In this document: positions 29,059 to 47,470 of the stretch, in pieces
Numbering within the stretch: position 1 is the first letter of the stretch
Layout: each line of letters begins with the position of its first letter
Origin: Pseudomonadota bacterium
Lineage (GTDB): Bacteria; Pseudomonadota; Gammaproteobacteria; Steroidobacterales; JBCBZW01
DNA length: 64,000 bases
Assembly: GCA_039193195.1 (NCBI GenBank)
Contig: JBCCWS010000009.1
Coordinates: 1-64,000, forward strand
Direction of reading: 5' to 3'
Made by a program: the position numbers and the translations under genes
Notes under the pieces: generated by a model
What the model saw: the letters and a program-made list of their open reading frames with translations, nothing else
What the model was told of the DNA's origin: nothing
The model's database searches: none

Positions 29059-29658
29059 CTACGCGCGGCGGCGACGGGCAGCCCCGGTTAGCATCAAGGC
29101 GCCAGCGAACAGGGCGAGCGCCGGCGGCACGGGCACCGTGGCCGCCCGTAATGCCGTGACCCGGAAGCCCTCGTCACCGGATAGGCCCACGATCTGGAAG
29201 GTGGTGCCTACGCCAACGCTGCTCACGTCGAGGCTCACTATGTTCACGACGTCTTCAGTCAGGTCGAAGACCCCCGCTTGCACACCATCCACCAGGATCG
29301 CGAAGAACAGCGGGGTGGTGATGCTGATCTCGTCGAAGGCGATCAGCCGGTCGAGAGATACAGGCTGTGAGAAGGTGAACAGCAGCGACTCGCCTGGGCC
29401 GATACGATTGCCCTCAAATGCAGGCGTGTTGCCCACGACGCCGAGGCCCGTATCGCCGTTGATGTGAACAATCCGGGCTTCCTCGCCGGCGAAACCTTCT
29501 GCCGTCAGGATGATCCCACCGTCTGTATAGGTTACCGGTGCAGTGCCTTCGCGATTGCCAAGGCCGTCCGCGAAGTTGAATTCGACAGTGGTGGCGTGTG
29601 TAGCAGCGGCGCCGAGCAGCGCCGCGGCGGCGGCGAGTGTCTTGAGGTGCAGATTCAT
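29059..29658 (-). CDS. VPLPA-CTERM exported surface protein
   Basis: This 199-aa protein has an N-terminal signal peptide (LKTLAAAAALLGAAATHA cleavage) and a beta-rich middle. It ends with VPVPPALALFAGALMLTGAA followed by RRRR. That tripartite ending (VPxP motif, hydrophobic span, Arg cluster) is the VPLPA-CTERM class, related to PEP-CTERM, which an exosortase-like enzyme removes during surface sorting. AGGAG precedes the ATG and a strong terminator follows the stop. No exosortase is in the window. The mature domain is unassigned. Confidence 0.85.
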   Translation of the reverse strand: MNLHLKTLAAAAALLGAAATHATTVEFNFADGLGNREGTAPVTYTDGGIILTAEGFAGEEARIVHINGDTGLGVVGNTPAFEGNRIGPGESLLFTFSQPVSLDRLIAFDEISITTPLFFAILVDGVQAGVFDLTEDVVNIVSLDVSSVGVGTTFQIVGLSGDEGFRVTALRAATVPVPPALALFAGALMLTGAARRRRA

Positions 29659-29927
29659 GGAGATGAGCTCCTACGACGCCCGTCGAGGGGCGCCAGGTAA
29701 ACGAGTTCCGAGTGCTCCGATCCTGAGGATCGTGGTTATTTTTCAAACACATTGCGCAAAAGGCGCGCTAGGTGCAAGTGCTTCTTGCAATCGATTTAAC
29801 ATACTGAATTATTGGAACTATCGAGGATAGGCGGCTGGCGCTGCAGGCCGCGCTGCGAGCGGTGCACCGACGGCGCTCTCGTCCGTTGAAACCAAAGCGG
29901 CCGTGCGGAAACTTCTCCAGGAAGCTC

Positions 29928-30704
29928 ATGCCACTACTTCGCCTCCAATGCATCGCCCCGCGAAGGCGCCTGGCCAGCCGGAATCGCCTGCGCCAGGCCA
30001 GCCCGTGGGCATTCGTGCTCCTGGGGTTGATGAGCGCGAGCGCAGCGTCTGCCGCGGTGGGCGACGCCCTGCGCGCGGCCCTGCTACTGCAGGCGAGCAG
30101 TGACCAGGCAATCGAGCGCCAGATCGCAGCCCTCGATGCCCAGCTCGGCGTGGCACCCGTGGGCAGCGAGCTGGATCGGCGCTTGGCCCAGGTGGTGACC
30201 CACTTGGGCGAGGTCAATGGCTACCCGCTGAACTACCGCGTGTACCTTGCCCCCCAGGTCAACGCCCTCGCTTTCCCCAACGGGGAGGTGCGCGTGTTCG
30301 CCGGCCTGATGCAACTGCTCGATGATGATGAGCTGACGTTCGTCATCGGCCACGAGATCGCCCACGTGGTGAAGGAGCACGGCATGGCTTCGATGCGTCG
30401 CCAACAGACGCGGAATCTCGCCGGCATCGCCGCCAGCCTTCTCGGTCTTCCGGCGGCGGGCCCGGGCCTTAACTCCGGCCTTGGCGCCCTTGAACTTCAC
30501 TTTGGTCGCAGTGCGGAACTCGAAGCGGACCGCTTCGGTCAGAAGCTGCTGGAAGTGCTTCACTTGAACCCCAAGGCTGGGGTCAGCGCACTCACCAAAT
30601 TGGCACAAGCCAACGGCAGCGCCGGGCGATTTGCCAGCTGGTTCCAGACCCATCCGGATCCGCTCGTGCGCGCGGAGACGCTCGACCAGGCGACCAAGCC
30701 GTAG
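29928..30704 (+). CDS. Exported M48 family metalloprotease
   Basis: This 258-aa zinc protease of the BepA/LoiP type has a signal peptide with a long basic n-region, cleaved near SAASAA (about residue 43). The zinc site is HEIAH (His142, Glu143, His146) with the third ligand in ELEADRFG (about Glu197). The chain ends with the conserved FQTHPDPLVRAETL. Such proteases clear misfolded outer-membrane proteins. The ATG at 29928 follows AGGAAG; an upstream frame to 29862 lacks a binding site. It is 54 bases upstream of the stator operon on the same strand and may be cotranscribed with it. Confidence 0.9.
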   Translation: MPLLRLQCIAPRRRLASRNRLRQASPWAFVLLGLMSASAASAAVGDALRAALLLQASSDQAIERQIAALDAQLGVAPVGSELDRRLAQVVTHLGEVNGYPLNYRVYLAPQVNALAFPNGEVRVFAGLMQLLDDDELTFVIGHEIAHVVKEHGMASMRRQQTRNLAGIAASLLGLPAAGPGLNSGLGALELHFGRSAELEADRFGQKLLEVLHLNPKAGVSALTKLAQANGSAGRFASWFQTHPDPLVRAETLDQATKP

Positions 30705-30758: not shown

Positions 30759-32027
30759 GTGAATCCCCTTGCTCCCCACCGCTGGATGCTCGGCCTGCTG
30801 CTCACCGCGGGCAGCACCGTGGCCCTCGCAGATGTCGGCCCGTCCCGCTCCTCCGCCTACGATCCGCAGACCGGTCAGGCGCGCTCGGAGCGCACGTCGA
30901 TTGCAACCAACACGCCGCTCAGCGTCGTGATCCCCGTGTTCGATCCCGGCCTCGACGGCGATCCGCCGAAGCCCTACCACAAGGACGAGAAGTGGGATCA
31001 GGTGTTCGATGAGATCCGACGCACGGAAGCCAACCTGATCGCCGCCGATCTGCGCGATGCCCTGCGCGATACGGGCCTGTTCGAGAAGGTGCGCGTGGCA
31101 CCGTCCTCGCAAGCGATCGGCGAGCTGTACGTGATTGGACGCATCATGCGCTCGAACAGCGAGGACTTTCACCTGCAGGTACAGGTGATGGACATCTCCC
31201 AGCGCGAGTGGTTGAACGACATCTACAAGATTCGCGTAGAGGAAGCTGACGTCTCGGAGACCGCCCGCCTGCGTCGGGTCGATCCCTACGAGGCACTGTA
31301 CACGCAGATCGTCGATGACGTAGTAGCCGCCCTCGCACGCCGGGACGAAGGCGACCTACGAGAGCTAAGAGGTATCGCCGATATGGTGTTCGCCAGCAGC
31401 TACTCGGAGGAGACCTTCGGCCGCTACCTAGGTGAAGATCGCGTGCGCGTGCGCACGGGCGAGCGCTCCACCCGCATCAGCGTGACCACCCTCGAGGGCC
31501 TACCGGCTGCGGGCGACGAACAGTACGCGCGCATCGCGGCCATCCGCACCAAGGAGGAGCTGTTCCTCGACGACCTGCAGCGCAACTACGACGAGTTTTC
31601 CGGCCGCGTCGAGCCCGTTTACGAAGAGTGGCAAACAGACGCCTACCCCTTGGCCGTAGACGCCCGCAAGGAGCGCGCTAAGTCCACTCGACGCAAGGTC
31701 TTCGCTGGCCTCGCTGCCGCTGCCGGCGTCGCCGCAGGCTCGGAAGCCGATGAGTTCAGGACTATCGCTCTGGCGGGCAGCGCGGCGCTCGCCTACACGG
31801 CCTATCGCTCTTCGCGCCAGTACAACGCCCTGCGCGAGTCGCTAGCCGAACTCGGCGAGTCCGTGGACATCCAACTGGCCCCGACCAACGTGGAGTTCGA
31901 AGGTCGTACGCAGACCCTAGAGGGCAATGCCGCCAAGCAGTACCAAGACATGCGCAATTTCCTACGCGAGGTATACGCGGAGGAAGCCACGCCCGATCGG
32001 TCTCTGGTGATCGACGAGGATCTCTGA
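30759..32027 (+). CDS. Exported protein, first gene of the stator-VWA operon
   Basis: This 422-aa protein has a signal peptide (WMLGLLLTAGSTVALA, cleavage before DVG). Residues about 75-150 (IAADLRDALRDTGLFEKVRV, then GELYVIGRIMRSNSEDFHLQ) resemble the mixed alpha/beta domain of exported proteins in which a strand pair follows a variable-length helix; this comparison is loose. Around 305-345 two small-residue-rich hydrophobic stretches (KVFAGLAAAAGVAAGS and TIALAGSAALAYTAY) could form a glycine-zipper-like membrane hairpin. It starts at GTG behind a strong GAGAGGAGGT. The next gene begins 109 bases on. The function is unknown; an outer-membrane-facing component of the operon's complex is my inference. 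Confidence 0.75.
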   Translation: MNPLAPHRWMLGLLLTAGSTVALADVGPSRSSAYDPQTGQARSERTSIATNTPLSVVIPVFDPGLDGDPPKPYHKDEKWDQVFDEIRRTEANLIAADLRDALRDTGLFEKVRVAPSSQAIGELYVIGRIMRSNSEDFHLQVQVMDISQREWLNDIYKIRVEEADVSETARLRRVDPYEALYTQIVDDVVAALARRDEGDLRELRGIADMVFASSYSEETFGRYLGEDRVRVRTGERSTRISVTTLEGLPAAGDEQYARIAAIRTKEELFLDDLQRNYDEFSGRVEPVYEEWQTDAYPLAVDARKERAKSTRRKVFAGLAAAAGVAAGSEADEFRTIALAGSAALAYTAYRSSRQYNALRESLAELGESVDIQLAPTNVEFEGRTQTLEGNAAKQYQDMRNFLREVYAEEATPDRSLVIDEDL

Positions 32028-32136: not shown

Positions 32137-33600
32137 GTGACCGACGACACCATCCCTGCCAAGGAGAGCCCAGACCTCGAGGCGCTCGCCCAAGCGGCAC
32201 GCAAGCGGCGACGCCACCTTGGACTGTTGAGCGTGTCCCTACTCATTACCGCGGCCCTGGTGGTCGGCATCTTTCTGTGGGTGGAGGCGACCTTCACGCC
32301 CGCGGTGAGGACGCTCCCGCAGGCCGAGCAAGCGCGGGTTGAGATCTCTTGCGGCGAGAGCACCGGTGAGGAGTGCTCGCGCCAGGACTTTCTCGACGCC
32401 CTGCGCAAGTTCAACTTCGACTCGCGCCCTGCTCTCGATAAGGTATCGCTGGAGCGATGGGATGCTCCACGGGCAGAAGCGATCGATGCGCTGGAGCGGA
32501 CCGCGCTCGATGCCTTCGACGCAGGCAAGTACCTCGACGCAACCGTCGCCATCACACGGGCCATCGAGGCCGCGGATGAGGCAGTCAAGCACGCCCTGCA
32601 GACCTACCGCATTCTGCTGCGCACGGCCCAACGCGCCTTCGCCGACAACGATGCGCCCCTCGCCCAGCAAGCGATTGAGCGAGCGCGCCTGATCGACCCG
32701 AACGCCGCCGATGCGCGAGCCCTGAGTGAGCGCATCGCGGTACTGCCCGCGGTGCTGGACGCCCTCGAGGCCGCGCGCGTCGCCGCCGTTGAGAATCGCC
32801 CGGAGGAGGAGCTGCGCCAGCTGCGCGCCGCCCTCGTTCTCGACCCGCAACGAACAGCCCTCGGCGAGCGTATCGCCGCCCTTGAGGGTGACGCCCTCGC
32901 CGACCGCTATCGATCCGCCGTGAACACCGCCGAGCGCGCCCTCACCCGCGGTGAGCTCGAGCGGACACAGCGGGCGATCGATCAAGCCCGCGCCATCGAT
33001 CCCGCGCAAGACCTCAGCCTCCTGCAACACCGCCTCGACGCTGTTCGCACGCAGCGACGCCTGGACGAGGCCTTAGCCAGCGCCCAGCGCGCCCGCGACG
33101 CCGAGGACTGGCGCAGCGCGCTCGCTGCCTACGAGCGCGCCCTGACTCTGGATGCCGCCAACGCCCAGGCCGTGCGCGGCGCAGACGATGCTCGCGCTGT
33201 GGTAGAGGCCTTCGACGAGCTTGCGATCTACCTAAAGGATCCGTTGCGAATCGGCTCGGCGCGCGCCGGCGAAGCAGCCCGTCGCCTGGCCAGTGACCTC
33301 GCGCCACAGCGCGGTGTGAGCGCCATTCTCGACGGCCAACTCGATCAGCTCGATGCCTACTTGGCCCTCGCGACGCAACCGGTGAGGATTACCCTGATCT
33401 CCGACGGCATGACCGAGATCAGCGTGCGGCGCGTAGGCCAAGTGGGTAAGCGCAAGCGGGCCACGATCGAGCTCACCCCTGGGCGCTACGAGGTGGAAGG
33501 GCACCGCGCCGGCTACCGGTCCAAGCTCGTTGCGCTCGATGTGAACTTCGGCATCGAACAGATGCAGGTGGAGGTGGTGTGCGATGAACCCGCCGCTTGA
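32137..33600 (+). CDS. Single-span membrane protein with TPR-like repeats and PEGA-like end
   Basis: This 487-aa protein has a basic cytoplasmic N-terminus (ARKRRRH), one membrane span (about 29-47, LGLLSVSLLITAALVVGIFL) and a periplasmic body. Residues about 120-370 are tetratricopeptide-like helices rich in Ala, Arg and Asp (DALERTALDAFDAGKYLDAT, AYERALTLDAANAQA). The last ~70 residues form beta strands ending in ELTPGRYEVEGHRAGYRSK, the pattern of a PEGA-like domain. It starts at GTG. Its end overlaps the next gene by 17 bases, so the two are translationally coupled. It is probably a scaffold of the stator-VWA complex. Confidence 0.8.
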   Translation: MTDDTIPAKESPDLEALAQAARKRRRHLGLLSVSLLITAALVVGIFLWVEATFTPAVRTLPQAEQARVEISCGESTGEECSRQDFLDALRKFNFDSRPALDKVSLERWDAPRAEAIDALERTALDAFDAGKYLDATVAITRAIEAADEAVKHALQTYRILLRTAQRAFADNDAPLAQQAIERARLIDPNAADARALSERIAVLPAVLDALEAARVAAVENRPEEELRQLRAALVLDPQRTALGERIAALEGDALADRYRSAVNTAERALTRGELERTQRAIDQARAIDPAQDLSLLQHRLDAVRTQRRLDEALASAQRARDAEDWRSALAAYERALTLDAANAQAVRGADDARAVVEAFDELAIYLKDPLRIGSARAGEAARRLASDLAPQRGVSAILDGQLDQLDAYLALATQPVRITLISDGMTEISVRRVGQVGKRKRATIELTPGRYEVEGHRAGYRSKLVALDVNFGIEQMQVEVVCDEPAA

Positions 33601-35641
33601 CGGGGACTTAAGCGGCGAGACGCCCCTGGACCTCGCCCTGCGCAACGCCCGACGCCAGCGCACAAGACGCCTATTGCTAGGCCTAGGTGCTATCGTCCTT
33701 GCCCTGGCTGCCGTCGCCGTATTCGCCGGGCTGTCCCGCGGCGTACGCCTACTGATCACACCGCCGGACGCTGCAGCTACTCCTGCGGTGACCCTACGTG
33801 ACGGTCTTGGCCTCGTCGTCGGCGAGCGCGTATACACCTTCTCCTCACGCCTTCACGCGATCGTCGAAGCGCCGGGCTTCTTCGCTGAGGAGGTCGCCCT
33901 GACCCCAGCACCGGGCAGCAACTACGTCGAGGTGGCCTTACGCGAACGGCCCGCAGAGCTTGCCCTGTCCACAGCCCCTGCCAGCGTCGAAGCGCGGTGG
34001 CGCCTGGACGGCGAGATTCTCGGCGACGGCGAATCGCTGGCGCTCAGCATCGAACCGGGCACGCACACGGTGCAGGTAGACAGTCCCTTCCACGACCTCG
34101 CCGAACAGACACTCACCCTAACCCGCGCCGAGGAGCGCGCGCTTGCCATCGCGCTGGTGCCTGTTCAGGGGGGGCTGTCCATCAACTCCGAGCCCGCCGG
34201 CGCCGAAGTGCTCGTGGACGGCGAGGTGCGTGGCGTAACGCCCTTCAAGGGCGCAGTTTCCGGGGGTGAGTACGTGATCGCTGTGCGCCAGGCGGGCCAT
34301 GCGGACGTCGTTGAGCGCGCGCGCGTGACCCGAGACCGACCGACGCTAACCCGCAACTACCGCCTGCTGCCCAACCCCGCCACACTGGCGATCAGCGTGA
34401 GCCCTGCCGGCGGCACCCTGCTCATCGATGGCACGCGGCGTACGGTCGCCTCATCGCCCTTCCAGGTGGCCTCCAGCGTGGCGCACACGTTGGTCTACTC
34501 CTCACCGGGTTACAGCACGGAGGCGCACACGCTCACGCTTGAGGCCGACGAATCACGCCAGCTAGATCTCCGCCTAAGCGCGCAATTTGGTGAGGTCGAA
34601 ATCGTCGCAGAGCCGCCCGCGGAGGTGTTCGTCGACGGTCGTGCGGAGGGGGGAACGCCGCTGGTCCTAGACTTGCCCGCCCTAGCCCATCGGATCGAGC
34701 TCCGGCGCAGCGGCTACGCGACAGTGACCCGCGTGGTCCACCCAACGCCGACGGCGCCCCAGCGCATCGACGCCACGCTCCTCACGCAGGCACAGGCCCT
34801 CTCAGCCGAAGCCGCGCCACGCTATCGCACCGTGGGCGGCTTAGAGATGCGACGCTTCGACCCCAGCGCTACCTTCACCATGGGTGCGCCGGCCAGCGAA
34901 CGCGGTCAACGCGCCAACGAGTACCTGCGCGAAGTGAGGCTGACCCGCCCCTTTTACGTCTCCCGAACGGAACTCACCAATGCCCAGTTCGCTCAGTTCC
35001 GCAGCAGCGGTAAGCGCAACAACCTACCCGTGTCCGAGGTTACCTGGACCGACGCTGCCCGCTTCTGCAACTGGCTGAGCGAGCGCGAAGGCCTGCCTCC
35101 CGTGTACCGCTTCGCCGGCACGCGCTACCTTGGCGCCAACCTCGCTGCCGACGGCTACCGCCTGCCCACCGAGGCCGAATGGGAGTGGTTGGCACGAGCA
35201 GCAGGCCGACGCCAACCGGCGCGCTTTACCTGGGGCAGCGAGTATGAGGTCCCCGCCCAGGCGGGCAACTTCGCGGACGAGACCGCCGCCGCCGACAGCA
35301 CGGTGCGCGGCGATCTCAAGTTCTACCTGTCGCAGTACACGGACGGCTTCGCCCGCCTCGCCCCTGTCGGTAGCTTTGCGCCGCACCGTTCGGGGCTACA
35401 GGATCTCTCCGGCAACGTGCGCGAGTGGGTCCACGACTTCGACGATCTAAACCCACCGCGCGAGGGCATCGCCCTGGACCCTAGCGGCCCTACGCGCGCC
35501 GGCGGTGGCAGCCAGGGGCATGTCATCAAAGGCTCCGGGTGGCGTGACGGACGCGTAGAGACCCTACGCGCCGCCCACCGCAGCGCCGGCGGCGACGCGG
35601 CGGACGACCTGGGCTTTCGCATAGCCCGATACATCTACTGA
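33584..35641 (+). CDS. Membrane protein with PEGA repeats and a formylglycine-generating-enzyme fold
   Basis: This 685-aa protein has a basic start, one membrane span (about 30-50), and a periplasmic string of PEGA-type beta domains (about 105-405). Recurring patterns include INSEPAGAEVLVDGEVRG, TLLIDGTRRTVASSPF and EVFVDGRAEGGTPLVL. An FGE-sulfatase/SUMF1 domain (about 418-683) follows, with FTMGAPASERGQRANEY, YVSRTELTNAQFAQF, YRLPTEAEWEWLARAAG and GLQDLSGNVREWVHD. True FGE enzymes bind copper through two Cys in a CxxxxC stretch near the end; here that segment reads GSGWRDGRVETLRAAHRSA with no Cys, so the domain is probably a non-catalytic binding module. It overlaps the preceding gene by 17 bases. 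Confidence 0.87.
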   Translation: MNPPLDGDLSGETPLDLALRNARRQRTRRLLLGLGAIVLALAAVAVFAGLSRGVRLLITPPDAAATPAVTLRDGLGLVVGERVYTFSSRLHAIVEAPGFFAEEVALTPAPGSNYVEVALRERPAELALSTAPASVEARWRLDGEILGDGESLALSIEPGTHTVQVDSPFHDLAEQTLTLTRAEERALAIALVPVQGGLSINSEPAGAEVLVDGEVRGVTPFKGAVSGGEYVIAVRQAGHADVVERARVTRDRPTLTRNYRLLPNPATLAISVSPAGGTLLIDGTRRTVASSPFQVASSVAHTLVYSSPGYSTEAHTLTLEADESRQLDLRLSAQFGEVEIVAEPPAEVFVDGRAEGGTPLVLDLPALAHRIELRRSGYATVTRVVHPTPTAPQRIDATLLTQAQALSAEAAPRYRTVGGLEMRRFDPSATFTMGAPASERGQRANEYLREVRLTRPFYVSRTELTNAQFAQFRSSGKRNNLPVSEVTWTDAARFCNWLSEREGLPPVYRFAGTRYLGANLAADGYRLPTEAEWEWLARAAGRRQPARFTWGSEYEVPAQAGNFADETAAADSTVRGDLKFYLSQYTDGFARLAPVGSFAPHRSGLQDLSGNVREWVHDFDDLNPPREGIALDPSGPTRAGGGSQGHVIKGSGWRDGRVETLRAAHRSAGGDAADDLGFRIARYIY

Positions 35642-35651
35642 GGAGAGCGCC

Positions 35652-35792
35652 ATGGCGCCAGCGACACGACACCGACTGCTCTGGACCACGATGACCGCCC
35701 TCGGCGTGCTGTCCGTACTGATCGTCGGTTACGCCGTGGCCCAAAGCGGCGTCAGCCTCGACGCCCCAGCCACCCTACCGGCGGACATCTGA
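35652..35792 (+). CDS. 46-residue membrane or exported microprotein
   Basis: This short frame encodes 46 residues: a basic start (MAPATRHR), a hydrophobic stretch (about 13-31, MTALGVLSVLIVGYAVA) and a polar end QSGVSLDAPATLPADI. It has a good GAGGAGA binding site, begins 11 bases after the preceding stop and ends one base before the proton-channel start at 35794, so it is embedded in the operon. AVA-Q would suit signal peptidase, giving a secreted ~16-residue peptide; otherwise it is a single-span subunit. The family is unknown. Confidence 0.65.
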   Translation: MAPATRHRLLWTTMTALGVLSVLIVGYAVAQSGVSLDAPATLPADI

Positions 35793-35793
35793 C

Positions 35794-36573
35794 ATGGGCG
35801 ATGCGAAAGGACGCGGCACAGATTGGCGCCGCCTAGCGATTTACTTCGGCCTCCTAGTGGGTATTGGCTTGCTGGTGCACCTACTTTACATCGGTCATAT
35901 CCGTCCCACCGCGGATGCGCTCATCGATGCCGCGCGTGCCGCCGGCACCTCCGCACCACGCTCCCCCTACGTAGTGCTGCGCGACGGCGAGCAGGAGCTT
36001 TGCATCATCCTGTTCCTGTGGAGCTTCGTGCTCACGATCTGGCGCCTGGTGGAGCTGTCCGCCCAATGGGACTACTTCGATGCGCTTGCCACAACGGCCA
36101 GCGAGGCCCTGGCGCAGTCCGCTGCGACGGCCAACCACCCACTGATCAAGGCGGTGACGGACAGCATGGCCTTGGGCCAAGACGGCGACATTCACAAAGC
36201 GCGAGAGGCCGCGCACATGCACCTGGAGACCTTCGGTCGCACGCTGGAGGCCAGCAACTCCCTTTTCCGCTACGTGATCTGGGCCGTGCCCTCGATCGGC
36301 TTCGTCGGCACCGTGCGCGGCATCGGCTCCGCCCTCGGCGAGGCCGACAAGGCTCTGGCTGGCGATATCGCCTCAATGACGGCCAACTTGGGCGTCGCCT
36401 TCAACTCCACCCTCGTCGCCCTGGTGCTGAGCCTCGCTCTGATGCTGTTTATGCACGTGCTCGAGGGCACCCAGGACAAGCTGATCATCGATATCGAAGC
36501 GGAGTGTGAGGAGCGCATCCGGGCGGCCGCGCGCAAGGCAAAGCCAGCAGCGAGTGAGGTGGCCGCGGCGTGA
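35794..36573 (+). CDS. MotA/TolQ/ExbB-type proton channel subunit
   Basis: This 259-aa inner-membrane protein has four probable spans (about 13-33, 66-88, 158-180, 202-224) with a large cytoplasmic loop between spans 2 and 3. The signature of the family is in span 3: IGFVGTVRGIGSALGEAD, the counterpart of the GLLGTVxGM motif. Span 4 contains the conserved small/Thr face (NSTLVALVLSLAL). In known stators five such subunits surround two single-span D-subunits and move protons to do mechanical work. There is no exbD, tolR, motB or tonB gene here; instead two VWA proteins follow with 4-base overlaps and appear to take the D-subunit's place. Confidence 0.92.
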   Translation: MGDAKGRGTDWRRLAIYFGLLVGIGLLVHLLYIGHIRPTADALIDAARAAGTSAPRSPYVVLRDGEQELCIILFLWSFVLTIWRLVELSAQWDYFDALATTASEALAQSAATANHPLIKAVTDSMALGQDGDIHKAREAAHMHLETFGRTLEASNSLFRYVIWAVPSIGFVGTVRGIGSALGEADKALAGDIASMTANLGVAFNSTLVALVLSLALMLFMHVLEGTQDKLIIDIEAECEERIRAAARKAKPAASEVAAA

Positions 36574-37631
36574 ACGCCGTCGATCGCATGCGCAACCGAC
36601 GTCGTGGAGCGGGCTCGTCGCTCTCCTTCCTCGACGTCATGTCCTGTGGGCTTGGTGCGGCGATCCTCATTTTCCTGCTCATCAAGCACAATACAGACGC
36701 CGGGTCGGTGGAAACCGACCGCCTGCTCGAGCAGCTCGAAACCATGGAGCGGGAGACGGAGCAGTTCCGCGCCGAGATCGCCGACATCGCGCGCCTCAAC
36801 GCGCAAGAGGAGAAGCTCGGCAGCGAGCTCCTCACACAACGCGAACGATCGCTGGCGGCCCTGGCGGCCCTGGACGTACGCATGAGCGCCCAGCGCGAGG
36901 TGAACCAGCAGCTCCAACGCACGGTGCAAGAACGCGAGGATCAGCTGGCGGAGACGGACGTGATCGAGATCCTCGGCAGCGGCCAGGAAGACTACGTGAC
37001 AGGCCTGCAGGTGAAGGGCCGACGCATCGCGATCATGCTCGATCACAGCGCCTCGATGACCGACGAGATGCTCACGGATATCTTCCGCTACAAGGTGGCG
37101 CCGGCGCAGGAGCGCAAGAGCGCCCCGAAATGGGGGCGCGCCGTCAAAGCCTCCAAATGGCTGCTCGCCCGCACACCGCAGAGCAGCCTGGTCGCGGTGG
37201 TGAGCTTCGCCGAGTCGGCTGAGGTGCTCGGCTCGGGCAACTGGTTCACCACCTCCAGCGACGAACAGCTCGCCAGCGTACAGCGCGACCTCGAGGCGCT
37301 GACCCCTAACGGTGCCACTAACCTCGAGGAGGGCCTCGCAGCCCTCGCAGAGCTCGACCCGCCGCCGACGGACGTCTACCTCATCACCGACGGCCTGCCG
37401 ACGCGCGCCACCACGGGCGGTCGCTGCGCCCGCGGACCGCGGGTCACAGCGGACTGCCGCGACACGCTCTTTCGCAACGCCACCCGCAACGCCCGCGACA
37501 AGCTCGGGGCATTCACCATGAACGTAGTGTTGCTGCCCCTGGAAGGCGACTGGAATGCGGGCCCCGCCTACATGGCCTGGAGCGTCGGCAACGGCGGCAC
37601 GCTGATCAGCCCGCCGGCGAGCTGGCCATGA
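36570..37631 (+). CDS. Stator-linked VWA protein 1 (ExbD-like membrane segment)
   Basis: This 353-aa protein has a basic cytoplasmic start (RMRNRRR), one membrane span (about 19-38) containing FLDVMSCGLGAAILIF, a coiled coil (about 48-130) and a C-terminal VWA domain. The metal site is complete: DHSAS (Asp158-Ser162), a Thr in NGATNLEEGL and Asp in LITDGLP. The FxDVM stretch coincides with the FIDVM of ExbD, whose Asp carries the proton; Asp22 here sits at the same depth. By charge the VWA domain should be periplasmic. The GTG start overlaps the channel gene's stop (GTGA), and its own stop overlaps the next ATG. I infer a stator D-subunit with a VWA domain as its working arm. Confidence 0.88.
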   Translation: MNAVDRMRNRRRGAGSSLSFLDVMSCGLGAAILIFLLIKHNTDAGSVETDRLLEQLETMERETEQFRAEIADIARLNAQEEKLGSELLTQRERSLAALAALDVRMSAQREVNQQLQRTVQEREDQLAETDVIEILGSGQEDYVTGLQVKGRRIAIMLDHSASMTDEMLTDIFRYKVAPAQERKSAPKWGRAVKASKWLLARTPQSSLVAVVSFAESAEVLGSGNWFTTSSDEQLASVQRDLEALTPNGATNLEEGLAALAELDPPPTDVYLITDGLPTRATTGGRCARGPRVTADCRDTLFRNATRNARDKLGAFTMNVVLLPLEGDWNAGPAYMAWSVGNGGTLISPPASWP

Positions 37632-38584
37632 ACACCGTACGCCGCGCGCGCAGTCGAGACGTCTTCGGCCTCGCCCTGCTGGACGTGGTGTCCTGCGGCT
37701 TCGGCGCCATCGTGCTGCTGATTCTGATCTCACGCACAGGCCTGGTGCCGACACCGTCGCCCGCCGTCGACTCGGGCGCACTCCTCACCCGCACCTTCGC
37801 CCTCGAGCAGGAACAGCAGCAGCTGGATGACCTCCTCGAGCGTGAGCGCCTGAAGCTCGCCGAATCCCAGGGCAACAACGCCGATGCCCGCCTCGCCCTG
37901 CAGCGCCTCGCCGCCACCGAACAGTCACGTTTGGCCGACGCCGATGCTCTGTCCGCCTCCACGGACGTCCTCAAGCAGCGCGGCGAGGACCTGGAACGCA
38001 CGATCCAGCTCACCCGCAATGACACGGACGCCCAAGACGAGGAAGTCGGTGGCATCCCGGTGGACGGCGACTACGTGATCTTCGTGATCGACACCTCCGG
38101 CAGCATGCGCCAGATCTGGAGCTGGGTGGTGCGCGAGATGGACTCCCTGCTCACGATCCACCCGCAAGTGAAGGGCTTCCAGATCATGAACGACAACGGC
38201 ATCTATATGTACCCGGGCCAACGCGGCGGCTGGATCAAGGACACGCGCGGCAATCGCTTGCAGGCCTTCGCCAAGCTGAAGGCCTGGGGCGCGAACTCCA
38301 ATAGCAACCCCATGCAGGGCATCACCGAGGCCCTGCGCACCTATGGCGCGCAGATGAAACGCGGCGACAAGGTATCGATCTACGTGCTAGGCGACGACTA
38401 CACGGGCCCGTCCTACGAGCGCGACGTGACCATCGCCGGCCAGCTGAACGGCGCGCCCGGCGAACGCCTGGCGCGCATCCACGCCCTCGCCTTCTTCGTC
38501 GCCCGCACGGCGCCGAAGTTCGCCACCCTGATGCGCGAGATGGCGTATCGCAACGACGGCACCTTCATGGCGCTCACGCGCTAG
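37628..38584 (+). CDS. Stator-linked VWA protein 2 (paralogue)
   Basis: This 318-aa protein has the same plan as its neighbour: basic start (RRARSR), a span with LLDVVSCGFGAIVLLIL (Asp19), a coiled coil (about 52-132) and a VWA domain from about residue 148. The first metal-site motif is DTSGSM (Asp155-Ser159). The Thr-bearing motif is not recognisable (SNSNPMQGITEAL instead of GxTN), though an Asp pair is present in YVLGDDYTG, so metal binding may be altered. Both paralogues keep LDVxSCGxGA, but their VWA parts differ strongly, which suits a heterodimer. The ATG overlaps the preceding stop (ATGA). Confidence 0.88.
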   Translation: MNTVRRARSRDVFGLALLDVVSCGFGAIVLLILISRTGLVPTPSPAVDSGALLTRTFALEQEQQQLDDLLERERLKLAESQGNNADARLALQRLAATEQSRLADADALSASTDVLKQRGEDLERTIQLTRNDTDAQDEEVGGIPVDGDYVIFVIDTSGSMRQIWSWVVREMDSLLTIHPQVKGFQIMNDNGIYMYPGQRGGWIKDTRGNRLQAFAKLKAWGANSNSNPMQGITEALRTYGAQMKRGDKVSIYVLGDDYTGPSYERDVTIAGQLNGAPGERLARIHALAFFVARTAPKFATLMREMAYRNDGTFMALTR

Positions 38585-38613: not shown

Positions 38614-39249
38614 ATGCTCACCCACACCCAAGCATCGTTGACCCTCGCCCTTGGCCTTACCTTGGGCGCGTACCTAGCCCAGGCACAGCAAGCGGGCGAT
38701 GCCTACGAGTGCACAGACATCGAGCTCGAGTACTACGACCCGACCTACCCTTACACCGAGCAAGAGCTCATCGCCCTTCGCAGCCAAGAGCTGGACCGCA
38801 CGCTCGGCGAGCTCAGCTACTGCCGCGAGCAAGCGGGCGAAGGCGACGGTGGCGATGGGGGGGGCGCAGGCGGGGCGGGAGGCGGTGGCAGCGCGAGCGC
38901 AGGGGGCAGCAGCGGCGGGCCAATCCCTAGCAGTATCACGGGGACAGAGCCACGGATCCTACCCGCCCTGAGCGCACGACCGTCACGCCAGGGCCGCGAG
39001 ACCCGCCGAGCGATCGACCAGGAGCAGATCGAACTCACCAATCCTCCACCGCCCCGCGATCAGCAGCAGGCGCCTTCTTCTGGCGATAGCGGAGCGCCGC
39101 CCGAGCGGATCCGGCGCGTCGACAACGACGACGCGGTGGCCGCACAGATTCGTAAGGCCGCGGAGGCGGAGACGGACCCAGCTCGCAAGCAGGCCCTGTG
39201 GAATGAGTACTACCGCTACACCGGACGCCAACCACCGCAGTCGCCCTAG
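38614..39249 (+). CDS. Exported Gly-rich-linker protein, last gene of the stator operon
   Basis: This 211-aa protein has a signal peptide (LALGLTLGAYLAQA, cleavage before QQAG). A short acidic helical domain with two Cys (YECTDIELEYYD, LSYCREQ) follows, then a Gly/Ser linker of about 30 residues and a Pro/Gln-rich disordered stretch. A C-terminal helix (about 170-205) ends ARKQALWNEYYRYTG. There is no known family. GAGGAG precedes the ATG, 29 bases after the VWA-2 stop. It converges on the acylase gene with a gap of six bases and is probably a periplasmic or outer-membrane partner of the complex. Confidence 0.72.
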   Translation: MLTHTQASLTLALGLTLGAYLAQAQQAGDAYECTDIELEYYDPTYPYTEQELIALRSQELDRTLGELSYCREQAGEGDGGDGGGAGGAGGGGSASAGGSSGGPIPSSITGTEPRILPALSARPSRQGRETRRAIDQEQIELTNPPPPRDQQQAPSSGDSGAPPERIRRVDNDDAVAAQIRKAAEAETDPARKQALWNEYYRYTGRQPPQSP

Positions 39250-43358: not shown

Positions 43359-43412
43359 ACCATAAGCCTGGTTTGCACACCCAAATAACAACGAGCATTG
43401 GAAGGATCATCG

Positions 43413-44003
43413 ATGTCCCGCACACCCACTTCAGTTGGCGCAACCATAGTCGCCACCTTTGCCCTGCTACTGGGCGCCCAAGTCACCCACGCCATGCCGG
43501 TGACCCTCACCTTTGACGAATTCAGTGTCGGCCAGCTGGACGGCACCACTGTGTACCAGCCGTTCGGTATCGATAACTTCGAGAACGTCTCGCAGACCTT
43601 GAGCGGCCTGTTCGACGACGGTGTCGGCATCACCAACTCGCCGGGCACCGTGGGCGCGATCGACTTCATCAGCGTCGTGACCGACCTCAGCTTCACCTGG
43701 GTGACCTCCGGACCCGGCGTCAACTTCATGGCCGAAGCCTTCGACACGGCCGGCAACCTGCTCGATACCTTCTTCTTCGATGGTTCGGGTACGCCGGACG
43801 CGACCGTGGGGGTTGGTTCACTGGCCGGCTTGGACATCGCGCGCATCGAGTTCCAGGACGGTGCCGCACAGGTGGCGATCGACACCCTGAACTACGTGAT
43901 CGTCGACAACCTCGCCGTGAGCGAACCCGCCGTCTTGGCGCTGTTCGGCTTTGGACTGGCAGGTGTTGCAACGGCCACCCGCCGGCGCCGCACAGCTCAG
44001 TAG
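43413..44003 (+). CDS. PEP-CTERM sorted exported protein
   Basis: This 196-aa protein has a signal peptide (VATFALLLGAQVTHA, cleavage before MPV). A beta-sandwich follows, beginning TLTFDEFSVGQLDGT, as in many exported beta-rich anchored proteins. The C-terminal sorting signal is SEPAVLALFGFGLAGVATA and an RRRR cluster, a PEP-CTERM variant with SEP for PEP. An exosortase would cleave there and move the protein to the surface or matrix. ATG at 43413 has GGAAGG upstream; a TTG at 43398 is rejected. It is expressed from its own sigma-54 promoter and followed by a hairpin. Confidence 0.87.
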   Translation: MSRTPTSVGATIVATFALLLGAQVTHAMPVTLTFDEFSVGQLDGTTVYQPFGIDNFENVSQTLSGLFDDGVGITNSPGTVGAIDFISVVTDLSFTWVTSGPGVNFMAEAFDTAGNLLDTFFFDGSGTPDATVGVGSLAGLDIARIEFQDGAAQVAIDTLNYVIVDNLAVSEPAVLALFGFGLAGVATATRRRRTAQ

Positions 44004-44013
44004 GAACCCCGAG

Positions 44014-44048
44014 CACCCCGCCGGCCCCATTGGCGGACCGGCGGGGTG
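44014..44048 (+). terminator. GC-rich hairpin after the PEP-CTERM gene
   Basis: CACCCCGCCGG (44014-44024) pairs perfectly with CCGGCGGGGTG (44038-44048) around a 13-base loop, starting eleven bases after the stop codon. There is no T-run, so it is a possible rather than a standard terminator. Confidence 0.55.
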
Positions 44049-44156
44049 AGAGAACGCCAGCACCTGCCGTTCTTCATCTCTCCTCCATCGGGAGGCCACG
44101 CGCACTACCGGTCGCTGCGCTGGGCAACGGCACGAGCGCTCCCACATAATCCGCCC

Positions 44157-44744
44157 ATGGCAGATACGCTGGGCGATCACATCGCGCGCATCGTTGACGG
44201 CGACCGCAAGGCCATCGCCTGGCTCTACGACACCTTTGCCCCGGTGTTGTTTCGACGTCTTCGCGCCCGCTACGGCTTCCCTGGCGGGCTAGACGCGCAG
44301 GAACTGCTGCACGACGCCTTTGTGTTCTTCCTTCAGCACGACGCACGGGTCCTGGGCCAATTCCTCGCCCGCACGGACGATGATGAGCGCACGCTCGACG
44401 CCCTTGAGCGACACCTGTGGGACCTGGCCTGCGGCGTGGCCAGCAACCGTCGACGCGAGCGGAGCAGGCGCCCGGAAGTCGCTCTAATCGATGCTGACGC
44501 GATAGGCGACAACGGCGATCCCGCTGAGTACTCACTCAAGGAAGACGTGCTCCTGCGCCTGGACGACTGCCTGCGCCAGCGCAACCCGCGCGTCTACCTC
44601 TACTTCACCCTGCGCTACCTGGACGGCCTGAGCCCCGAGCAGATCGCCCAAAGCACGGGCTGGTCGCGCAAAGCCACCTACAAGCTGCGCCAGGCCTTGA
44701 ACGACGCGGTTAGCGAGTGCGCCGAGCAGCTGCACCTGTCGTGA
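44157..44744 (+). CDS. ECF sigma factor of the CHAT-subtilase cluster
   Basis: This 195-aa alternative sigma factor has region 2 in GGLDAQELLHDAFVFFLQHD, where the acidic DAxE of region 2.2 is kept (unlike the ECF43-like factor at 16 kb). Region 4 reads YFTLRYLDGLSPEQIAQSTGWSRKATYKLRQAL. The ATG at 44157 has no strong binding site; the open frame extends to 44046 but the extension overlaps the upstream hairpin. Its stop overlaps the start of the CHAT gene (GTGA), so the two are coupled. The protein encoded at 47517 is the likely anti-sigma factor. Confidence 0.9.
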   Translation: MADTLGDHIARIVDGDRKAIAWLYDTFAPVLFRRLRARYGFPGGLDAQELLHDAFVFFLQHDARVLGQFLARTDDDERTLDALERHLWDLACGVASNRRRERSRRPEVALIDADAIGDNGDPAEYSLKEDVLLRLDDCLRQRNPRVYLYFTLRYLDGLSPEQIAQSTGWSRKATYKLRQALNDAVSECAEQLHLS

Positions 44745-47470
44745 GGTGGGCGCTGCTGGCTTTGGTGATCGCCGCCCTGAGCATCTCCTGCACTAAGGGG
44801 CCAACTGCACTCGTTGGCGACGACACCTCCATCACTCTGCGCGATCACACCGAGCTCCTCTTGGGCGAGGACGGTGCGGTGCTCCCCCTGCACATAGGCG
44901 GTGACAATCCGCCTCCCCTGACCCTATGTCTGGCACCACCGGCGAGCATCGACACCAGCCAGTGGCAGATCCGGCTGCACCTCAAAGGGCAGCTTGCCCC
45001 CGGCGAGTTCTCGCCGCCCACCACACGCTTGGGCGCCACCTTGTGCTTCAGCGCCGACCTCCAGCCTTGGGCGCGCGAGCGTAAGGCAGCCCTATGCGGG
45101 GAACTAGCCGATCGCTACGACGGCAGACGCCAGCGGCTGCCTTGCCAATCCGTGGTCCTTCGCGGCCATGACGCGCCCCGCCAAGCCGTGCTCGAAGCCT
45201 TGGTCGATGTGTTGTCCACCGTCGGCGATCGCGCGGACCCAGCGACGGTGGCACGGCTTCGCGAACTGCAACAGCGCGCCATCACCTATCCCCTGCTGCA
45301 CACGCGCCTGCGCCTGGTGGCAAGCTTCTTCGCCAGACGAAGCGGCGACCCCATGCTGCTCGACTGCGCTCGCCGCGACCTCGCCGATGCGCCTCCTTGG
45401 CTAGATGCCCCTCCCGCGCTGGCATGGAAAGCCCAATGGCGCTACGAGAGCGCAGCCCTAGCGCTGGAGGCACCGGCGGATTTGCAGCAGGCGTGGATCG
45501 CCCTGCGCGATTCCGAGCGCGCCTACCGCACCATTGCCCATCCCAAGACGATCGCCGCGGCCATGAAGCGCAGCGAGGTACTCACCCGTCTGGGCAACGC
45601 GACTGACGCCACCCACCGCCTCGATGCGGCCCTTAGAGACTGCGCCACCGCACGTTGCGACCCACTCCTGCTGCCCTATGTTCGCAACACGCTCGCCTGG
45701 GCCCTGCTGATGCAAGCCGACCCCGACACGCCAACGCTGGCCCACGCGAAGGAGATCCTCGAAGACGCGCTCATCACCCAAGGCGATGATGCCCCGCTGG
45801 AAAGAGCTAATATTATCATTAACTTGGCCCTGCATGCGGTACGCGACGGCGCCTCCCCAACGAAATTCTTAGCGAAAGCCGCGGCGCTACTGGACGCAGC
45901 CCCCAACGCCAGATCAGGGCGCGCGGGCGCGCTCAGCGAGTGGGCGACGTTAGTCAGCGCCGACTACGCGCTGTTGCGAGGCAATACCGAGCGTGTGCAA
46001 GCGCTCGCCCGGCCGCTCGCTGGGACCTCCAGGCAACCGCGGGTGGCCGCCTGGGCCTTCAGCCTGCTCGGTCGCGAGGCCCGCCAGCGCGGGGCACTAG
46101 ATGAAGCCGCCAGCGCCTTCGAAGCAGCGCTTATCCTCCACGCGCAACGCGATGCGAGTGGCGCCACGGCCAGCGCGAGCGCGCCCGGGCTATGGGCCGA
46201 CGACGTCTACCGAACGGCCCGCGTGGCCGTGGAGCGCGGACGGGCCGAGGACGCCTGGCAGCTGCTCGCTTCGCTGGATGACGTGCTCATCAGCACGCCT
46301 TGCCCAGCTGTAGACAACGGGTCCGATCAGGCCAGGTATACCTACCTGCTGGGGGAACTCGCCGCCTTGCAAGCGCCCGCATCGGGTCCGCGGCGCGCAC
46401 AGCAACGAAGCGCCCGGCGCATCCTCCTAGACGAACTCCTACAGCTATCGCGCGATCGCTGCCCCTCACCGCCAGCGGCATCCTCCTTAGGCACCGCGGC
46501 GCAGCTGCGGGCCTTTGCGCTGCCCGATGAGATCCTGCTCTTGCATCGCCAGGGTGACAGCGACGTGCAGCTCTACCGTCGCACGACCTACGCGCGAAGC
46601 ACCTTGAGAGCTGACCTAGCGAAACTCGAAAGCGCTATGGCACGCACGGTCGACGACCGCACCTGGCGCGCCTTGGCGAAACCACTGGCCGAGGCCTTAG
46701 CGCCCCGCGCCGAGGACTTCCCGGCCGATATCCCTCTGCACGTCGCCCTGCACGGACCCCTTCAGCGCGTACCGCTCGAAGCCCTGCCCACAGGCGACTC
46801 GCCGACCTCGGTTTGGGTGGCAGACGCGCTCACGGTGACCTTAGGCACTGGCGGCGTGCGCAGCATGGAGCCACGCCTCGTCGAGACCACGCGCACGCCC
46901 CTGTTCGTGGTCAACCCGAGCGCCGATCTTCGCGCTGCGGCCTCCGCCGCCCCACGCTACCGACGTTGGTTCCCCTCGGCCCTCGTGCTAAGTGAACAAG
47001 AGGCACGCTACGAGGCGGTCAAGCAGGCTCTGGCCCAGGCCGAGTTCATCCACGTAGATGCCCACGCGATCTACGATCCTGCGTTTCCCGGCCTGTCGCA
47101 GATTCGCCTGGCCGGTGAGCGTGGTCTGCTCGCACAAGATCTCGTGCGCGCGGATGCGCCCTACGCCTTCGTCAACCTGAGCGCCTGCGACTCCGGCCGC
47201 TGGCCCGAGTCCGCCGGCTCCGGCGTCTACGGCCTAGGCGGTGCCGTAGCTCGCGCCAGCGCGGCGTGGGTGATCGCCGCCCGCGCGCCCCTCGCCGACG
47301 AGGTTGCCGCCACCCTGAACAACAGCTTTTACCAGCGCCTACGCGACGGCGCAGACCCCGTGTCGGCCTATCGCTTCGCCCACGCGCAGGTTCGCCAGCA
47401 ACACCCCGCCTCGCGCTGGGGTCCGCTGATGTTGCTTGGTGGCGTGGGGGGCAAAGCATCGCAGCGCTGA
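44741..47470 (+). CDS. CHAT-domain protease lipoprotein with TPR-like repeats
   Basis: This 909-aa protein has a short signal (MRWALLALVIAALSISC) whose Cys could be lipidated. A beta domain (about 30-120) leads to a long helical, TPR-like middle (about 145-560) and a C-terminal CHAT caspase-like domain (about 600-905). The catalytic dyad is visible: His775 in FIHVDAHAIYD and Cys816 in VNLSACDSG. CHAT proteases are mostly cytosolic, so an exported one is unusual. GTG at 44741 overlaps the sigma stop; an upstream GTG at 44717 would place charged residues before the signal. Linkage to a sigma factor, an anti-sigma factor and a subtilase suggests a proteolytic signalling cascade, which is inference. 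Confidence 0.85.
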   Translation: MRWALLALVIAALSISCTKGPTALVGDDTSITLRDHTELLLGEDGAVLPLHIGGDNPPPLTLCLAPPASIDTSQWQIRLHLKGQLAPGEFSPPTTRLGATLCFSADLQPWARERKAALCGELADRYDGRRQRLPCQSVVLRGHDAPRQAVLEALVDVLSTVGDRADPATVARLRELQQRAITYPLLHTRLRLVASFFARRSGDPMLLDCARRDLADAPPWLDAPPALAWKAQWRYESAALALEAPADLQQAWIALRDSERAYRTIAHPKTIAAAMKRSEVLTRLGNATDATHRLDAALRDCATARCDPLLLPYVRNTLAWALLMQADPDTPTLAHAKEILEDALITQGDDAPLERANIIINLALHAVRDGASPTKFLAKAAALLDAAPNARSGRAGALSEWATLVSADYALLRGNTERVQALARPLAGTSRQPRVAAWAFSLLGREARQRGALDEAASAFEAALILHAQRDASGATASASAPGLWADDVYRTARVAVERGRAEDAWQLLASLDDVLISTPCPAVDNGSDQARYTYLLGELAALQAPASGPRRAQQRSARRILLDELLQLSRDRCPSPPAASSLGTAAQLRAFALPDEILLLHRQGDSDVQLYRRTTYARSTLRADLAKLESAMARTVDDRTWRALAKPLAEALAPRAEDFPADIPLHVALHGPLQRVPLEALPTGDSPTSVWVADALTVTLGTGGVRSMEPRLVETTRTPLFVVNPSADLRAAASAAPRYRRWFPSALVLSEQEARYEAVKQALAQAEFIHVDAHAIYDPAFPGLSQIRLAGERGLLAQDLVRADAPYAFVNLSACDSGRWPESAGSGVYGLGGAVARASAAWVIAARAPLADEVAATLNNSFYQRLRDGADPVSAYRFAHAQVRQQHPASRWGPLMLLGGVGGKASQR

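Follow-up and report, generated by a model that had tools for sequence, protein, structure and literature searches.

A conserved operon that joins a TolQ-type channel to two membrane-tethered VWA proteins: a candidate proton-driven motor of the cell envelope

Which proteins can serve as the moving partner of a MotA/TolQ/ExbB-family channel, and on what would they act? The question is raised by a locus in a 64,000-nucleotide stretch of the gammaproteobacterial assembly GCA_039193195.1 (contig JBCCWS010000009.1, positions 1 to 64,000; hereafter the window, on contig C9), in which a channel gene (MOT) is followed by two genes for VWA proteins (VA and VB). A preliminary description, made from the sequence, had read the three as an undescribed stator with the VWA proteins as its D-subunits. 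The genes are indeed present with the boundaries given there, each junction being a 4-base overlap that is read directly from the window, and each VWA protein has one hydrophobic span. The best overall explanation of the locus is that MOT, VA and VB form a proton-driven trans-envelope motor acting on products of the same operon, which we consider probable. That protons drive a motor made of these three proteins, in which VA and VB form the axle, may be held with good confidence; that this motor drives an outer-membrane assembly through its operon partners is favored only slightly.

MOT resembles the channels of 5:2 ion-driven motors in belonging to the MotA/TolQ/ExbB family (PF01618). Two threonines that align with pore threonines of TolQ are invariant among relatives, as is an aspartate inside the span of each VWA protein (Table 1); neither span in the window contains histidine, that is, both are without an SHLS/His motor-binding motif. 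The VB aspartate is conserved partly by construction, because one of the two peptide patterns used for the locus scan includes it; the 18 relatives fetched with the channel as query are free of this bias, and VA was never the scan query, though the peptide pattern could fit some VA genes. In the full alignment eight VA rows show a gap at D22, consistent with late-called starts, and the extended frames all carry the aspartate. In nine loci that are alphaproteobacterial by record title (L059, L062, L063, L066, L067, L068, L070, L073 and L082), none of ATG, GTG and TTG precedes the span in the VA frame, and a CTG lies about 15 codons ahead of the span aspartate in each of them, which suggests a CTG start codon.

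VWA_2 is the sole credible Pfam match in either protein, above the cut-off for VA (PF13519, E = 3.9e-7) and below it for VB (E = 0.017); a side match to UPF0242 (E = 0.048) is also below cut-off, and Pfam finds no ExbD/TolR/MotB-type domain (PF02472, MotB/OmpA) in VA or VB. The AlphaFold2 model of VB (mean predicted local distance difference test, pLDDT, 83.9; predicted template-modelling score, pTM, 0.57) has the span helix followed by a helix of 81 residues and then a globular domain with the VWA fold (Foldseek E down to 2.8e-7; best Z 18.1, 2.4 Å over 160 residues). When VA and VB were compared with solved structures by sequence profile, most matches were to coiled-coil proteins, through the linker, and no VWA-named chain was among the matches listed. 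Both domains carry an invariant DxSxS and partner residues (Table 1), which, by analogy with the VWA family, we take to be a metal-ion-dependent adhesion site (MIDAS), a predicted metal site.

Relatives were collected in two ways. A channel search of 59 genomes (the window's own and 58 relatives) gave a match at E ≤ 1e-8 in 49, from which 20 regions were fetched, including those of a second operon in the window's own genome (on contig C8) and of a sister species; a VB alignment scan yielded at least 569 relatives among at least 594 matched stretches, the best 80 of which by VB match are the named loci. Genes in the mapped loci were labeled with profiles built on the first region set. Where the contig leaves room in the 80 named loci, VA is present in 77 of 77, MOT in 71 of 71, FGE in 65 of 66, TPR in 58 of 60 and CSG in 52 of 54, and EXP is found in 18 of the 21 in which CSG begins no earlier than base 2000. 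The best matches of every family lie on one strand in all 80 loci, in the order EXP-CSG-TPR-FGE-MOT-(ACT)-VA-VB. With the microprotein gene MIC between FGE and MOT, the family operon numbers about eight genes; ACT, an HSP70-like/FHA protein, is absent in the window, and EXP stands at the 3′ end in the window and the sister species (L038) and at the 5′ end in the other mapped relatives. The PEGA-FGE and TPR-like genes upstream, the microprotein and the exported gene downstream that had been noted in the preliminary description are thus real. A scan for promoters and terminators found none of the former and one terminator-like site, against 3.9 expected. Between the window and the sister species, the ratio of nonsynonymous to synonymous substitution rates (dN/dS) is 0.059 for MOT, 0.067 for VA and 0.077 for VB; it is 0.11–0.23 across CSG, FGE, EXP and TPR, and 0.37 over the 46 codons of MIC. 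Selection between these two congeneric species is thus purifying for MOT, VA and VB, which are therefore not chance frames.

The VWA genes do not occur mostly without the channel gene, a pattern that the preliminary description had held would speak against a stator. VB and MOT each match (E ≤ 1e-15) in 16 of 398 genomes of the phylum, including the window's own, and the 16 are identical, with fewer independent cases among them; MOT is, as stated, in every named locus with room for it. In a tree of 92 channel rows, the window lies inside a clade of 34 rows (support 100/100) that are all without ACT and rich in alphaproteobacteria, and its grouping there, together with the sister species, with three gammaproteobacterial rows is a possible artefact (a warning of the tree tool). 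The C8 copy of the same genome falls in the other clade, in which 55 of 58 rows have ACT. This copy (G000:C8:1402-15140; L037) is a second complete operon, with a kinase-TPR protein and an HSP70-like/FHA gene between the channel and VA. A further locus, L084 (CAMDWI010000021.1), is titled as a Klebsiella pneumoniae metagenome-assembled genome; its channel groups with those of marine Cellvibrionaceae/Colwelliaceae, and it is probably a mislabeled bin.

Other stator genes in the genome bear on the role of VA and VB. Searches of all contigs gave nine channel-family matches, six PF02472 (ExbD-family) matches, one MotB_plug match and six TonB_C matches over cut-off. No PF02472 or PF13677 match was found on C9 or C8, and no TonB_C match over cut-off on C9. 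Of the seven channel matches other than MOT and its C8 counterpart, six adjoin an ExbD or MotB match (the ExbD matches all stand beside their own channel match, on C3, C11, C12 and C16, and the MotB_plug match adjoins a channel gene on C28), and the one on C60 does not. VA and VB are candidates for the D-subunits because both operon-bearing contigs lack an ExbD/MotB match while six of these seven channels have one adjoining. The absence of exbD, tolR, motB and tonB claimed in the preliminary description thus holds near the locus but not genome-wide. On C8, a TonB_C match (E = 1.6e-8) lies at G000:C8:16518-16700, about 1.4 kb past the EXP gene of that operon.

What the motor might act on is suggested by the remaining products. 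FGE matches PEGA (E = 4.6e-30) and FGE-sulfatase (E = 1.5e-34) in Pfam. In a phmmer search of the PDB its closest solved chains are lipoproteins of the PorK type (1e-10 to 1.4e-10), PorK being a protein of the motor-driven ring of type IX secretion, followed by PvdO (6e-10) and a formylglycine-generating enzyme (6.7e-10), so that the lead of PorK over PvdO and the enzymes is narrow. The NCBIfam GldK model matches at E = 8.3e-20 with only 71.5 of the 350 bits required, and the architecture differs. The C-terminal stretch VIKGSGW..RAAHRS, in which the two active-site cysteines of the catalytic enzyme presumably lie, contains no cysteine in any of the 15 aligned rows. According to PMC12421860, the FGE fold of PorK likewise lacks the catalytic cysteine and acts as a docking hub instead of an enzyme. 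A docking-hub role for FGE is supported by its relation to PorK (almost equal to that with PvdO and the enzymes) and by the missing catalytic cysteines.

CSG matches nothing in NCBIfam and nothing above cut-off in Pfam. In its AlphaFold2 model (pLDDT 83.4, pTM 0.79), the domain of residues ~48–195 superimposes on an LPHT-ring chain, 8z5n_0, presumably FlgT (family names are those of PDB titles), with Z 12.0 and a root mean squared deviation of 5.2 over 178 aligned residues (VIA-align), and also on PelC (Z 11.1), TolB (10.5), a curli complex (10.3) and CsgG (10.1), with prolyl-tRNA synthetases (7.5) as background. This domain of CSG probably shares the fold of the CsgG/PelC/TolB-D1 and LPHT-ring chains, from which CSG differs in the long C-terminal helices that follow. 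Of 57 aligned rows, at least 90% have the cysteine of a lipobox. CSG as the outer-membrane end of the system is supported by this likeness in fold to outer-membrane/periplasmic ring and lipoprotein families. The TPR proteins of the window and of L057 have no Pfam match over cut-off; orthologues in L037 and L084 match TPR_2. In L037 a Ser/Thr kinase domain (Pkinase E = 1.1e-24) stands at the start of the protein; judged from motif and length, such kinase-type TPR proteins occur in nine loci including L037, all from the window's order or from its own genome. A profile match marks ACT as HSP70-like (SSZ1 E = 2.1e-4); of three ACT proteins tested, two contain an FHA domain (E = 3.7e-11 and 4.1e-14) and that of L084 does not. 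What is shown here is the gene set, the conservation of residues, the co-occurrence, and the modeled folds of VB and part of CSG.

The most conserved part of MIC is its C-terminal tail (family consensus ISxxxxVSFPVDI). A pattern with loose constraints on the last five residues finds a frame ending in [FLIVM]Px[DN]I between FGE and MOT in 86 of the 90 loci having both genes (85 plus L107). Three of the other four have near forms (SYPVDI in L039 and L118, SLHADI in L095), leaving L042, which differs, as the single exception. Among 38,182 frames of at least 25 residues on both strands, there are 88 occurrences of the pattern, 86 of these being MIC and two lying in L088. Columns beyond the search pattern are conserved as well, with Ile at −13 in 66 of 85, Ser at −12 in 69 of 85 and Asp or Asn at −10 in 82 of 85. 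By eye, MIC of the ACT-less clade is a signal-like stretch with little besides the tail, and MIC of the ACT clade has an acidic, often proline-rich linker ahead of it. The L088 tails stand at plus-strand base 1 and at minus-strand 14275 (reverse complement), near the same end, and this doubling is perhaps an assembly artefact. Integrin-type MIDAS heads grip acidic ligands. By analogy with this ligand chemistry, the acidic tail may be the ligand of the VWA MIDAS, an idea that we put forward tentatively. The wider scheme of an independent trans-envelope rotary machine in Pseudomonadota and a few further phyla, in which both VWA heads would grip the xPxDI-COOH tail of MIC through their MIDAS and drive the FGE hub and an outer-membrane ring, is more doubtful still.

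Much of the motor core has been proposed in print. An article in Mol Biol Evol (June 2025; PMC12204202) reports that heterologous pairs of vWA proteins tethered by a transmembrane helix tightly co-occur with tolQ homologues, without tolR or exbD. Its AlphaFold3 models show a pore-inserted dimer whose transpore helix carries an aspartate ringed by channel threonines, and a first vWA family is modeled there as binding the outside of the channel, as TolA and TonB do. With the second family of that article, the TPH-vWA/tolQ pairs (Fig. 4c-d, Idiomarina), the present locus shares a tolQ-like channel with two different single-span vWA proteins, the lack of tolR or exbD nearby, a span aspartate opposite a threonine ring, spans without histidine, and hosts among Proteobacteria and Verrucomicrobia. 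By every testable feature of its sequence, the window locus is a member of this predicted family as the available part of the article defines it. The word 'undescribed' in the preliminary description must therefore be given up, since that article had already predicted how the VWA proteins pair with the channel, that their spans enter the pore, how Asp and Thr are placed, and that the two VWA partners differ; the stator claim itself is sound. The VWA proteins also stand as the best candidates for the D-subunit pair (no ExbD or MotB on the contig, an invariant aspartate, the threonine pair, co-occurrence), with novelty being the part of that claim that is lost. The present analysis contributes the arrangement of the operon as a whole and the tail peptide, which are secure at the level of sequence. 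Section 8 of PMC12204202 names no PEGA-FGE, CSG, EXP, ACT or microprotein gene for the second vWA family, and in its available part a TPR gene is named just for the other vWA family. No account of the whole operon or of the microprotein was found in the open-access literature (preprints excluded), and a word search of the main texts of PMC12505986 and PMC9389320 found neither 'VWA' nor 'von Willebrand'.

In the mechanism that we propose, a MOT pentamer would surround a VA–VB heterodimer as a 5:2-type proton-driven motor of the inner membrane, as the invariant residues and the published models of relatives suggest. The span aspartates would carry protons past the threonine ring, and the coiled coils of the axle would raise two metal-binding VWA heads into the periplasm. 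There the heads may act on operon partners, namely a PEGA-FGE docking hub, the TPR protein, CSG as an outer-membrane ring-fold lipoprotein, and secreted MIC, so that proton flow would move an outer-membrane assembly or put it under tension, in the manner of Tol-Pal and the type IX secretion system (T9SS). The complex itself, its stoichiometry and rotation, its partners, the direction of force and its biological role are what we infer. The T9SS (PorKLMN/GldKLMN) resembles this arrangement in its expected 5:2-type motor, an FGE-like protein without the catalytic cysteine and a likely outer-membrane end; it differs in that the FGE protein of the operon has an N-terminal span and PEGA repeats rather than a lipid anchor, and in that the heads of the axle are VWA domains. 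No NCBIfam match to GldL/PorL or GldM/PorM was found at E ≤ 0.1 among the eight operon proteins. Tol-Pal (TolQRA-TolB-Pal-CpoB) likewise offers a TolQ-like channel, a TPR protein and, in the lipoprotein of relatives, a TolB-D1-like domain, whereas TolR, TolA, Pal and the TolB propeller have no Pfam match among the operon proteins.

Several observations weigh against this account. The profile match of MOT to TolQ structures is weak (E = 0.02) and aligned over two pore helices. The best Foldseek match of CSG, to TolB (4r40), is also weak (E = 2.4e-3), the fold match of CSG covers a single domain at Z 9–12 with the helices past residue ~200 barely probed, and its lipobox cysteine is absent from the aligned copies of the window and the sister species. 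Not all parts are obligatory: no EXP match was found in L074, L076 and L077 despite room, L124 has neither TPR nor CSG despite room, and L121, from Verrucomicrobia, has MOT-ACT-VA-VB only. Thirteen of the 16 co-occurrence genomes belong to one family (f55), far from 16 independent cases, and in two of the 16 (G182 and G294) VB and MOT match on different contigs of fragmented assemblies. The window and the sister species share a long branch (1.97 changes per site) in the channel tree. No report of a complex, proton flux or phenotype of a member was found in the open-access literature. The 'force-transducing periplasmic machine' of the preliminary description is thus plausible, and strengthened by the operon parts, but no demonstration of force, rotation or a complex was found for any member. 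Confidence in the outer-membrane drive is lowered slightly because PorK leads the FGE enzymes only narrowly.

A different placement of the VWA proteins would set VA and VB against the outer face of the channel as transducers, like TolA or TonB, around a pore dimer of ExbD or TolR encoded elsewhere. The six ExbD-family matches elsewhere in the genome would allow this, and the first vWA family of PMC12204202 is modeled so; however, each of those matches already adjoins a channel match of its own, and the spans of VA and VB, which lack histidine, carry an invariant aspartate where a pore helix would have one. We regard side-binding as quite improbable. A motor may also be the wrong picture altogether if the VWA heads and the tail gate the channel or signal to the cytoplasm, with kinase, FHA and HSP70-like parts reading its state. 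The nine kinase-type TPR proteins, confined to the window's order or its own genome, and the HSP70-like protein between MOT and VA in the ACT clade, with FHA in two of three tested, speak for such a regulated sensor. Yet the window's clade has neither kinase nor ACT while its motor residues and heads stay invariant, so the cytoplasmic signaling parts appear optional, and a sensor is unlikely.

It could finally be asked whether the window locus is a surplus copy in decay, with the complete operon on C8 as the functional system. A long branch, a lost lipobox, a displaced EXP and the lack of an ACT gene all fit such decay, as does a second full operon in the same genome. Decay is nevertheless disfavored by dN/dS against the sister species, low for MOT, VA and VB, still low for CSG, FGE, EXP and TPR, and looser for MIC; the frames are intact, and operons without ACT are the rule in the window's clade (34 of 34 rows). 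This leaves decay very improbable, and the proton-driven motor of MOT, VA and VB remains the preferred explanation.

Table 1. Features of the proposed motor operon and neighboring genes, in window coordinates
Feature	Position	Strand	Description
MOT	35794-36573	+	TolQ/ExbB/MotA-type channel; 259 aa; PF01618 E = 6.4e-12
MOT Thr173 (GTVRGIG)	36310-36312	+	Aligns with TolQ GTVWGIM; Thr in 94/94 rows
MOT Thr206 (FNST)	36409-36411	+	Aligns with Thr of last TolQ pore helix; Thr in 94/94 rows
VA	36570-37631	+	GTG start within GTGA; span 20-38, coiled-coil-like linker, VWA domain
VA Asp22 (SFLDxMSCGxGA)	36633-36635	+	Inside span; Asp in 97/97 rows with motif located (one cut row left out)
VA putative MIDAS DxSxS, D158/S160/S162	37041-37055	+	Each 96/96 rows
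VA putative MIDAS T250	37317-37319	+	Thr in 92/96 rows, Ser in other 4
VA putative MIDAS D274	37389-37391	+	96/96 rows
VB	37628-38584	+	ATG within ATGA; span 16-34, long helix 49-129 (81 residues), VWA domain 144-318
VB Asp19 (LLDVVSCGFGA; family SFLDxxSCGFGA)	37682-37684	+	Asp in 93/93 rows with motif located (six rows without motif in first 160 frame residues left out) and 99/99 in full alignment; partly by construction
VB putative MIDAS DxSxS, D155/S157/S159	38090-38104	+	Each 99/99 rows
VB putative MIDAS S226	38303-38305	+	99/99 rows
VB putative MIDAS D256	38393-38395	+	99/99 rows
MIC	35652-35792	+	46 aa; hydrophobic N-terminus, AVA-Q signal-peptidase-like end (by eye), then conserved tail
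MIC C-terminal tail	35751-35789	+	VSLDAPATLPADI in the window; conserved, family consensus ending SFPVDI-COOH
CSG	30759-32027	+	Periplasmic/outer-membrane protein; residues ~48-195 TolB-D1/CsgG/PelC-like fold, then long helices
TPR	32137-33600	+	N-terminal span 28-46, then helical repeat region; orthologue of relatives' TPR proteins
FGE	33584-35641	+	N-terminal span 30-48, PEGA repeats, C-terminal FGE-like domain
EXP	38614-39249	+	Exported Gly/Ser-rich protein; conserved C-terminal AAQIRxAAxxExDPxxKxxLWNEYRKYKG (alignment)
M48 protease gene	29862-30704		Directly upstream of operon
Exported protein	43398-44003	+	PEP-CTERM-like sorting tail
Exported protein	29059-29658	-	PEP-CTERM-like sorting tail
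ECF-sigma-like, then CHAT-domain protein	44046-47470		Outside operon

Among the genes around the operon, that for an M48 protease has LoiP and BepA as its nearest NCBIfam families, both below cut-offs. Another M48 gene lies 1.1–1.8 kb after VB in 33 mapped loci, on the same strand in 31. As its position differs between the window and relatives, the M48 gene may be ordinary synteny and is left out of the proposed machine. Of the two exported proteins with PEP-CTERM-like sorting tails, the one on the plus strand has NCBIfam PEP-CTERM matches below cut-off and the one on the minus strand was recognized by eye only. Farther downstream, the ECF-sigma-like protein has matches below cut-off and the CHAT-domain protein matches CHAT at E = 4.7e-24.

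If the proposed motor is real, one more machine that is powered by protons and extends as far as the outer membrane would exist in bacteria outside Bacteroidota. Its heads would be of the adhesion type, in the place where stators known so far have domains that bind peptidoglycan or TonB. Beyond the motor-only proposal of PMC12204202, as far as the available part of that article extends, the operon set and the tail peptide provide concrete, small parts of such a machine.

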